A stretch of DNA of 36,107 bases from Candidatus Portnoybacteria bacterium RBG_13_40_8 (GTDB lineage: Bacteria; Patescibacteriota; Minisyncoccia; RBG-13-40-8-A): positions 1 through 36,107 of the forward strand of contig MHMT01000030.1 of the NCBI GenBank assembly GCA_001819435.1, read 5' to 3'. Below the pieces are notes generated by a model, which searched no databases, had not been told where the DNA came from, and saw nothing but the letters and a program-made list of their open reading frames with translations. This document shows, in pieces, positions 13,228 through 24,876 of the stretch. Each line of letters opens with the position of its first letter. Positions within the stretch are counted from its first letter, which is position 1. The position numbers and the translations under genes were made by a program.

Positions 13228-14217
13228 TTAAAACTGATTAAGAAAATGTAAATCGCTCGAATAGAGCAATCTGATATCATTTATTTTGTACTTAAGCATA
13301 GCAATTCTGTCTATGCCGATACCAAAAGCAAACCCCTGCCAATTACCTGGTACATAACCGACCGATTTAAAAACATTTGGGTGAACCATGCCTGCACCCA
13401 TAATTTCCAACCAATCACTTGAAAGATATTTCATCTCTATATCAAAGCCCGGTTCAACAAAAGGATAATAACTTGGCCTCATTCTTGTTTCTATTTCCTC
13501 GCCAAATAGTTTTTTAAGAAATTCCTCGACGACTGCTTTAAAATTGGCAATGCTAATGTGGGTATCAACCATTAGACCCTCTAATTGATAGAAGTTATAA
13601 AAATGAGAAGCGTCAGTAGACTCATAACGAAAAACTCTGCCTGGAACAATAATTCTAAAAGGCGGGTTATTTTTTTCCATAAATCTAACCTGCATCGGAC
13701 TGGTATGGGTTCTTAATAATAATCTTTGTGGTTTAGTTTTCAGCCAAAAAGTATCCCAAGCATCACGAGCAGGATGATCTTGAGGAATATTTAGAGCATC
13801 AAAATTATAATATTCGGTCTCGATATCTGGTCCCTCGATAATTCTGAACCCCATTGATTGAAAAATGTCCTCTATTTTTCTCATTATATGAGTTAAAGGA
13901 TGGAGATGGCCATGGACAATTCTTATTCCAGGAGCAGTGATATCTATTTTTTTTTCTCTTTCTTTCGTTTTTGTCTCTTGTTTAATAAGCTGACTTTTTA
14001 AGTTCTCTATTTTTGATTCTATTTCTTTTTTAAATTGATTAGCCTCTGTTCCCAGTTTTTTTCTTTTCGCTATGGATAAATCTTTCAATGATTTCAGGAC
14101 AAAGGTTATCTCCCCCTTTCTGCCCAAATATTTAATTCTGAATTGCTCTAATTCGGCCAAATCTTTTACTTTGGTTAAATCGATAAATATTCTCTTTTTT
14201 AAATCTCCGATGTCCAT
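13228..14217 (-). CDS. pheS: Phenylalanyl-tRNA synthetase alpha subunit
   Basis: 'HPLTHIMRKIEDIFQSMGFRI', 'HPARDAWDTFWL', 'RTHTSPMQVRFM', 'GIGIDRIAMLKY'. Confidence 0.97.
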   Translation of the reverse strand: MDIGDLKKRIFIDLTKVKDLAELEQFRIKYLGRKGEITFVLKSLKDLSIAKRKKLGTEANQFKKEIESKIENLKSQLIKQETKTKEREKKIDITAPGIRIVHGHLHPLTHIMRKIEDIFQSMGFRIIEGPDIETEYYNFDALNIPQDHPARDAWDTFWLKTKPQRLLLRTHTSPMQVRFMEKNNPPFRIIVPGRVFRYESTDASHFYNFYQLEGLMVDTHISIANFKAVVEEFLKKLFGEEIETRMRPSYYPFVEPGFDIEMKYLSSDWLEIMGAGMVHPNVFKSVGYVPGNWQGFAFGIGIDRIAMLKYKINDIRLLYSSDLHFLNQF

Positions 14218-14354
14218 GCCCCGTATTAGATTTTCGACATTTTTAATGTCGAAATTATTAAATTAACAGTTATCTTAATATTTTTATCCCTGATTATGCC
14301 CCGCGCTTTTTTGTCCCGCAGCTGCGGGACAGTCGAAAATTCAGTACGGGGCAT
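14216..14354 (-). repeat. Structured element copy 1 (139 bp, 23-bp terminal inverted repeats, two internal hairpins), ends on the pheS start codon
   Basis: Terminal arms ATGCCCCGTATTAGATTTTCGAC / GTCGAAAATTCAGTACGGGGCAT (20/23 complementary); inner perfect palindrome TGTCCCGCAGCTGCGGGACA (14312-14331); hairpin TTCGACAT-TTTTA-ATGTCGAA (14233-14253). Second copy at 24642-24782. Confidence 0.9.
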
Positions 14355-14357
14355 AAT

Positions 14358-14717: not shown

Positions 14718-15422
14718 TTAAAATTCAAACTCCTTTTTCATAACCTCCATTTGCTTCAGTCGCATTGACATTTTGTATTTATTTTTCAATTCTCTTCCCA
14801 TGGCAAATGCTTCACTGAATAGTTCTTCGGATTTCCGAGAATCTTCTTTTTTAATTGCTAAAGCTAACCAAGAAATTACACCGGATTCTAAAATCAATCT
14901 GTGAAAATGGCGGAGATTTTTGTCTTTTCGAATGAGATTTAAAGATTTTAGGAGAACATTTTTTGCTTTTTTCTCTTTATTCGCTAAAACTAATCCTTTT
15001 CCATAATGGCCCAAATATTCACCATAGCCAGCATTTTTTGGAGTTCCCTTTAACGATCTCACTGCCCAAAGATACCATTTAACCGATTCTTTAAAATTTT
15101 TCTCCTCAGTCAAAACGTCACCCATTCTCAATTGAAAAACCGCCAAATAGCGAGGAGGTAGTTTTTTTAGCTTGGAAATCCCTAATCCCAATTCTACATC
15201 AGCTCGCATTAATTCTAAAAATCCTTTGTCTTTGGTCTCCCACCAAAAATGCTTGTCAATAACAATCTTGTGCCCCAATGCTTCTATAAAATTCGCCCAG
15301 AGATTATGTTTACCACTAACCAACATTGCTTCATCAAAACAGGCCAAAGCTGTCTTATAATCTTTCTTTTCTCTGGCAATTTCTCCTTTTGTTATTAAGT
15401 TTTTAAATTCGCTTTTTTGCAT
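14718..15422 (-). CDS. Hypothetical helical-repeat (TPR-like) protein
   Basis: Repeated amphipathic helices such as 'IAREKKDYKTALACFDEAMLV'. Confidence 0.6.
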   Translation of the reverse strand: MQKSEFKNLITKGEIAREKKDYKTALACFDEAMLVSGKHNLWANFIEALGHKIVIDKHFWWETKDKGFLELMRADVELGLGISKLKKLPPRYLAVFQLRMGDVLTEEKNFKESVKWYLWAVRSLKGTPKNAGYGEYLGHYGKGLVLANKEKKAKNVLLKSLNLIRKDKNLRHFHRLILESGVISWLALAIKKEDSRKSEELFSEAFAMGRELKNKYKMSMRLKQMEVMKKEFEF

Positions 15423-15684
15423 CTTCTCCTCTTTTTAGATATTTATTTAACATTTTTCTAATGGTTCTAATTCCCCAACCACTTTTTAAATATTCTTCTC
15501 TATGTTTTGCATCTATTCTATTTAAAAAGGCTTCATAAAAAATAAGCTTATAGGGTCTAAATGGTTTTGTTGCTAAACTTTCTCCGGAATTATGCTGTTT
15601 AAATCTTTTTCTTAAATCCGTGGTATAACCAATATACAAGTTATTGTCTTTTTGACTGCCAAGAATATAAACGTAATAAAACAT
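15403..15684 (-). CDS. GIY-YIG nuclease family protein (small YhbQ/UvrC-N type)
   Basis: 'YYVYILGSQKDNNLYIGYTTDLRKRFKQHNSG' GIY-YIG signature; 93 aa. Confidence 0.92.
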   Translation of the reverse strand: MFYYVYILGSQKDNNLYIGYTTDLRKRFKQHNSGESLATKPFRPYKLIFYEAFLNRIDAKHREEYLKSGWGIRTIRKMLNKYLKRGEDAKKRI

Positions 15685-23884: not shown

Positions 23885-24643
23885 TCAATATTTGAATGTT
23901 GCATCTGATATTATTTCCTTATCAAATTCTTCGCAGCCAAGAGCAAAAAAACGAATATGGGTCTGAATATCGGCTCCATTTATAAAATCTAAAGGCTTAT
24001 CTTCGTTATTGAAACATTCGTTATTCTTTATATTTCTACACTTCAACTCTAAGGTAATTTCGTATTCCAAAGCTGCGGCTTTGGTATATGGATATAAATC
24101 TCCGAGAGGATAATCAAGTTCAATCAACATGTATTCATCTCCGCCCAAATTAATCTCTTTCTCGTAACCATTAACCGTTAAAAACATTTTTGAAACATAA
24201 GAAGCTTCTAATGGATAAATTAAATCGTCTCTCCTTTCGCTTAATTTGTCGCTTAAAAAATAAAGCCATAATTTTTTTATATCAAAAACAAGACGCTCCG
24301 GGGCATCGATTCTATATTTTCCCAGGCTGATTTTGGTCGAACTACCGTCTTTTTTAATCTCCCAAACCGAATCAGCTGGTTTTAATTCCTTGCCCTCAAG
24401 ATGCTGAGGCCCGGCACAGCCATAGCCCAGATTGACATCAAGCTCCTTTTCCCGGCTTGGATTTTCTGAAGGAAGAACCGGTTGGGGCTCGTATTCTGAA
24501 ATCTGTTCTTCTTCACTTGGCCCTGGTTCTATTTTTGGTTTATTTTTATAATCTAAATAAATAAAAATACCGGCAACAATAATTGCCAGAAAAATCGGAA
24601 TAAGAAGCTGCCATTTTGACTTATTTCTAATATGCTCTTCCAT
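23885..24643 (-). CDS. Hypothetical membrane-anchored extracytoplasmic protein
   Basis: TM 'WQLLIPIFLAIIVAGIFIYLDY' after MEEHIRNKSK; ATG at 24643 is used rather than the GTG at 24652. Confidence 0.7.
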   Translation of the reverse strand: MEEHIRNKSKWQLLIPIFLAIIVAGIFIYLDYKNKPKIEPGPSEEEQISEYEPQPVLPSENPSREKELDVNLGYGCAGPQHLEGKELKPADSVWEIKKDGSSTKISLGKYRIDAPERLVFDIKKLWLYFLSDKLSERRDDLIYPLEASYVSKMFLTVNGYEKEINLGGDEYMLIELDYPLGDLYPYTKAAALEYEITLELKCRNIKNNECFNNEDKPLDFINGADIQTHIRFFALGCEEFDKEIISDATFKY

Positions 24644-24782
24644 ACCCCACACTAGATTTTCGACATTTAAATATCGAAATTATACAAATAAATAATTATT
24701 ATAATGGTTTATTTCTCGATTGTACCCCGCGCTTTTTTGATCCGACCGCAGTCGGATCAGTCGAAAATTCAGTACGGGGCAT
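24642..24782 (-). repeat. Structured element copy 2 (141 bp), ends on the start codon of the 23885-24643 gene
   Basis: Arms ATACCCCACACTAGATTTTCGAC / GTCGAAAATTCAGTACGGGGCAT; right arm identical to copy 1; inner hairpin TGATCCGAC-CGCA-GTCGGATCA. Confidence 0.9.
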
Positions 24783-24876
24783 ATCTAAAAATTTTATCCT
24801 ATTTTTATTGTTCTGTCTATAATCTAATTTTTCTGTTTATTTTATTTTGTTTTTATTTTGTCCTATAATTAAAAAT

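Follow-up and report, generated by a model that had tools for sequence, protein, structure and literature searches.

A short repeat at start codons in Candidatus Portnoybacteria is probably a transposable element that duplicates its target

The repeat at positions 24645–24779 (minus strand) of the window, i.e. the whole stretch of 36 107 nucleotides of the Candidatus Portnoybacteria bacterium RBG_13_40_8 genome that was analysed, is in all likelihood (probability about 0.8) a transposable element that inserts into translation start codons, present here in a short and non-autonomous form. The element is widespread in the ultra-small Patescibacteria. Its short copies look like MITE-type derivatives of full-length elements, in which a single GIY-YIG nuclease ORF lies between the repeats. 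The repeat had been described in a first-pass annotation mainly as a selected RNA leader of the gene that follows it; this was not supported in view of target-site duplications (TSDs), empty sites, a near-identical pair of copies at unrelated genes and nested insertions.

Two copies in the window and their empty sites

The copy under study (copy 2; 135 bp, CCCCGTACTG...TAGTGTGGGG in mRNA sense) ends exactly on the start codon of the next gene. All features described in this section are on the minus strand. The element ends in terminal inverted repeats of about 20 bp (CCCCGTACTGAATTTTCGAC / CCCCGTACTAGATTTTCGAC), located in copy 2 at 24645–24664 (gene-proximal 3′ arm) and 24760–24779 (promoter-side 5′ arm), and the inner hairpin TGATCCGAC-TGCG-GTCGGATCA is at 24738–24759. 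The insertion is flanked by a 4-bp TSD (TATG-element-TATG), so that copy 2 reads, in gene sense, TATG, the element (CCCCGTACTGAATTTTCGACTG...inner hairpin...AATGTCGAAAATCTAGTGTGGGG) and TATGGAAGAG. The gene-side duplication (24641–24644, CATA on the plus strand) includes the start codon (24643–24641) of the host gene, and the promoter-side duplication (24780–24783) is a second, upstream copy of this start codon. A −10-like TAAAAT (24791–24796) is found 8 nt upstream of the upstream ATG, the spacing of a leaderless transcript, and is the putative host promoter.

The host gene (23885–24643) encodes a 252-aa protein with no Pfam match and has orthologues in all five family relatives (G001–G005). 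The element was absent from each of these orthologues, and those of G002, G003, G004 and G005 begin with a single (T)ATGGAA, as expected of empty sites. Copy 1 (133 bp, 14219–14351) has the same layout on the start codon of pheS (13228–14217; PF01409, PF02912). Its promoter-side duplication is TATG (14352–14355); the gene-side one (14215–14218), which contains the pheS start codon, is CATG, one base off. The G002 pheS orthologue has no element upstream and is also an empty site.

The observation that the element is present twice was confirmed: the distal 26-mer CAGTCGAAAATTCAGTACGGGGCATA occurs unchanged at 14330–14355 and 24758–24783 (by chance, 0 would be expected), and CCCCGCGCTTTTTTG is likewise common to both. 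Each copy has the orientation of the gene that follows, with an equal ATG offset, and the inner hairpins differ on both sides. The bounds first given to the repeat had to be narrowed: the CATA at either outer edge, which reads TATG in gene sense, is a copy of the TSD and lies outside the element. Among the differences reported in the start-proximal arm, the C-to-T of GGGGCAT/GGGGTAT consequently belongs to flanking DNA, and for the first one it is copy 1, not copy 2, that deviates from the family consensus (CTAGTACGGGG followed by TATG).

Copies in other genes and the choice of insertion site

When the genome was searched with the copies, the two already noted proved to belong to a set of eight, with dozens more in relatives. 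Six are long, the five others being 77–80% identical to copy 2; they precede a glycosyltransferase gene, jag, rpsL, rpoD, pheS and the copy 2 gene, and each shares the orientation of the gene that follows and ends on the start codon of that gene. This single orientation relative to the gene led us to reject an invertible promoter. Two further copies with related arms were L112, before rsmI, and L154, found with shorter queries. All eight copies are on start codons. The copies at jag and rpsL (L003 and L004) are identical at 133 of 136 positions despite their unrelated hosts, which indicates recent movement. In G002, an element was found inside the hairpin of another element, with CGGGG duplicated around the insert. 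Nested, nearly identical copies (L052–L055) were observed at contig ends of G002 and are the probable cause of breaks in the assembly.

TATG is the most frequent TSD. Others are ATGA, before alaS (L102), TGAA (L056, L057, L061, L106, L108), TGGA (L063, L064, L152) and TGGG (L223); TCAA, CCAG and TTTA were found away from start codons (L106, L107, L113). Since the tetramers vary between insertions, they do not belong to the repeat itself. The duplication has 4 bp in most cases, CGGGG and TATGA being read as 5, and it is absent from the empty site. With each register found at start sites (TATG, ATGA, TGAA, TGGA, TGGG), the insertion has a start codon on either side; where the TSD starts with TG, the element contributes its last base, G, to form GTG.

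Among the 47 copies that could be placed in the six genomes of the family, 44 have the start codon overlapped by the duplication. Random insertion into non-coding DNA would put 3.7% of them there (p~1e-59), with three permitted registers per gene and 8.9% of the window non-coding. If TATG tetramers alone were targetable, half would be expected at starts (p~1e-10), the window containing 16 TATG at starts and 16 elsewhere in non-coding DNA; both expectations are rough, as they were derived from one window. These counts bear on the possibility that an unrelated transposase moves the short copies in trans, as it would ordinary MITEs, the GIY-YIG gene being a passenger and start codons merely tolerated sites for a TATG-preferring enzyme. 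Terminal repeats and a short TSD of fixed length are typical of MITEs and TATG is indeed the most frequent TSD, but TATG is as frequent in non-coding DNA away from starts, yet nearly all copies are on starts, and ATGA, TGAA, TGGA and TGGG duplications also fall on start codons. We consider this explanation unlikely, also in view of the coding content of the longer elements described below.

The same arms recur at start codons in other families of the class. Some hosts were hit repeatedly in different families or genera, i.e. rpsL (L004, L131), glyS (L045, L166) and rodA (L016, L095), and many hosts are translation genes (pheS, glyS, proS, tyrS, trpS, alaS, aspS, hisS, efp, pth, gatC and the genes of L10, L27, S12 and S20). 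With dozens of unrelated host genes, the spread exceeds homologous alleles of one site, and homing restricted to such alleles was ruled out. L056 and L061 are the same insertion (TGAA, GTG start) before the same nucleotidyltransferase gene in two genera, and the arms of L061 are partly decayed.

Some other arrangements were recorded. At L115 (1400–1516) and L141 (1392–1516), related arms CCCCGTACTAAAAATTT / AAATTTTAGTACGGGG surround an intact tRNA gene and are themselves embedded in the remains of another tRNA (D-loop, anticodon loop). In family f26 (L121–L125, L162, L164, L171), a second hairpin CTATAATTTTGTAGC...ACAAAATTATG is located between the element end and the next ATG, possibly forming a composite element. 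Viral carriers were not retained: three IMG/VR matches had no matching second arm nearby and were, by inspection, in apparently coding sequence. An IS200/IS605 or REP element was rejected because a TSD is present and Y1 transposase is absent from the genome, and an integron attC because no matching core sites were seen by eye.

Arm pairing, strand and promoters

Both strands of both copies fold far better than shuffled sequences, with z of −6.0 and −4.7 for copy 2 and −5.8 and −7.1 for copy 1. In an alignment of 15 short copies, pairing holds in 93.3% of cells and is abolished when the partners are shifted against each other. Arms and hairpin contain 24 double-changed cells against 7.0 ± 2.0 in shuffles, none of 500 reaching 24. 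Judged from these alignments, arm pairing is conserved through compensatory changes.

This part of the earlier proposal of a selected structure was upheld; the claim that substitutions keep pairing only in mRNA sense was not. Over 58 copies, excluding the fixed G.U/A.C step and end positions, 25 G.U and 16 A.C exceptions were counted (p=0.21), i.e. there is no significant strand bias, and the ratio is 3 to 2 in the six long copies of the genome. RNA and single-stranded or cruciform DNA are therefore not distinguished as the selected form. In nearly all copies, TGAA is opposite TAGA at arm positions 10–11, which gives the fixed step of one G.U and one A.C, a conserved asymmetry.

A host regulatory RNA leader of riboswitch or attenuator type, dispersed to several genes and retained for regulation, would account for the compensatory changes, for the fixed orientation of most copies, for the many translation-gene hosts and for the site common to two genera (L056, L061). 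It is made improbable by hosts that have no single common function, by a presence that varies among related genomes, by the lack of strand bias and by the nuclease gene of the full-length versions. No Rfam family was matched, which also led us to reject a described riboswitch or cis-regulatory RNA.

Action at the RNA level, in which the element would be cut from the transcript by RNase III or splicing, or the ribosome would skip from AUG to AUG, was judged rather unlikely. The ends do form a stem of about 20 bp joining both start codons, a GIY-YIG inverted-repeat element (L192) lies within a 23S rRNA gene, and RNase III-processed intervening sequences are suspected in these bacteria (PMC11270868). 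Removal alone would allow insertion anywhere in genes, which was not observed, and no group I or II intron was matched with the Rfam covariance models in L001, L005, L058, L095, L133, L144, L220 or L192, so that an intron of these groups was rejected. Action of this kind would in any case supplement a mobile element rather than displace it.

The motif TANNNT was found 6–10 nt upstream of the upstream ATG in 40 of 74 insertions; at 4–8 nt it occurred 33 times against 17.7 in shuffles (maximum 28). This spacing is that of leaderless transcripts, so the promoter is usually outside the element. Such a −10 motif is missing in about half of the 74 insertions, some of which are apparently inside operons, and no good −10 at leaderless spacing was seen by eye in the 3′ end of the element. 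The nearby −10-like sequences could be taken to indicate promoter or operator DNA, i.e. a double-stranded control site repeated where transcription starts, but they lie upstream of an element bounded by terminal repeats and TSDs, and empty sites have the start codon without the element. This reading is extremely unlikely.

Full-length elements, proposed mechanism and meaning

Full-length relatives of the transposable element have about 280–330 bp and contain, between the repeats, one ORF of about 90 aa encoding a GIY-YIG nuclease, which the short copies lack. The same arms enclose such an ORF in L133 (316 bp, host dnaE; PF01541, E 5.9e-19), L144 (313 bp; PF01541, E 1.5e-18) and L105 (295 bp, host hrcA; PF01541, E 3.8e-19), the ORF of L105 having lost its ATG. 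The nearest solved relatives of the encoded protein are UPF0213 proteins (PDB 1zg2, 1ywl). In a search with the protein only, blind to arms and sites, matches were obtained in 145 of 293 genomes of the class, and among the best 30 loci 23 proved to be elements at a start codon. Hosts identified by inspecting the sequence include groES, ileS, proS and the L32 gene, and the arm families of these loci are CCCCGTAG, CCAGGTAG, CCCAGTA and ATCCCGTTAGAGAT. The start-codon pattern recurs elsewhere in the phylum. Several GIY-YIG loci are without arms (L219, L222, L240).

The Portnoybacteria genome itself yielded no GIY-YIG ORF between arms of this kind, so its copies either moved in trans or are relics. 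A stand-alone GIY-YIG ORF (P0001, window 15403–15684, minus strand) adjoins a tRNA cluster; flanking arms were not found around it. A known transposase with the same ends was not found either: the ORFs between these arms all encode GIY-YIG proteins, and Y1, the one transposase searched for, is absent from the genome. These two results make an unrelated transposase acting in trans less likely. GIY-YIG enzymes are not known to make 4-bp target duplications with terminal repeats, and UPF0213-type proteins are not known as parts of mobile elements.

Known systems share some of these features. Insertions in CPR rRNA genes, either encoding GIY-YIG or short (<200 bp) and ORF-less, and unlike group I/II introns, have the same hosts, ORF and short versions (PMC11270868); in the text consulted, they are described from rRNA genes only and left uncharacterised, and terminal repeats, TSDs and start-codon insertion are unreported. 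MITEs and non-autonomous IS derivatives (MITEAba12, PMC6382973) are likewise short, with terminal inverted repeats, a short TSD and many, also nested, copies, but the present element targets start codons and leaves one on each side, and no transposase of a known family was identified for it. Penelope-like elements (PMC3846280) are transposable elements with a GIY-YIG nuclease, but they are retroelements, whereas this one has about 0.3 kb and no reverse transcriptase. Intervening sequences of 23S rRNA cut by RNase III also have a stem with joined ends and are dispersed by insertion; unlike them, the element occupies the start codons of protein genes. In the literature searched, subscription journals and bioRxiv lying outside it, no start-codon elements or GIY-YIG elements with TSDs were described in bacteria.

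Repeats, duplications, empty sites, start-codon placement and the GIY-YIG ORF were read directly from the sequences, and the following mechanism is proposed. The GIY-YIG nuclease would cut target and element and so drive transposition, short copies would be mobilized in trans, and targeting may rely on an open promoter or on the start codon itself. The upstream copy of the start codon stays by the host promoter and the downstream copy would start the host gene. The nuclease would then be expressed from this promoter and the upstream codon. In three elements, L242, L243 and L245, the frame of the GIY-YIG protein begins at the upstream host start codon (MPSKTKSN, MPGRTNSN and MPSNTTSS). Host genes are presumably translated from the downstream codon, their expression being assumed from their essential nature, and insertion may be tolerated because the gene retains a start codon and a promoter. 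The paired arms would form a stem in DNA or RNA, probably required for mobility, which may bring the downstream AUG near the mRNA 5′ end or be an RNase III target. We give even odds to the stronger proposal that the lone GIY-YIG nuclease is the transposase of a new superfamily, among the smallest autonomous ones (about 0.3 kb), spreading phylum-wide by insertion at the start codons of essential genes, where it would capture the host promoter together with the first start codon and provide the gene with a second.

Selfish DNA normally avoids essential genes; this element seems to seek out their start codons, and the duplication of these codons seems to be what lets it survive. This would mean a new class of transposable element and a possible transposase role for GIY-YIG nucleases. 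In the annotation of Patescibacteria, the element would give rise to misplaced start sites and short leader ORFs, and its inserts of 70–320 nt at the start codon would show, as a natural test, how they are tolerated by leaderless genes. The GIY-YIG insertions of CPR rRNA genes, left uncharacterised so far, could also be explained in this way.
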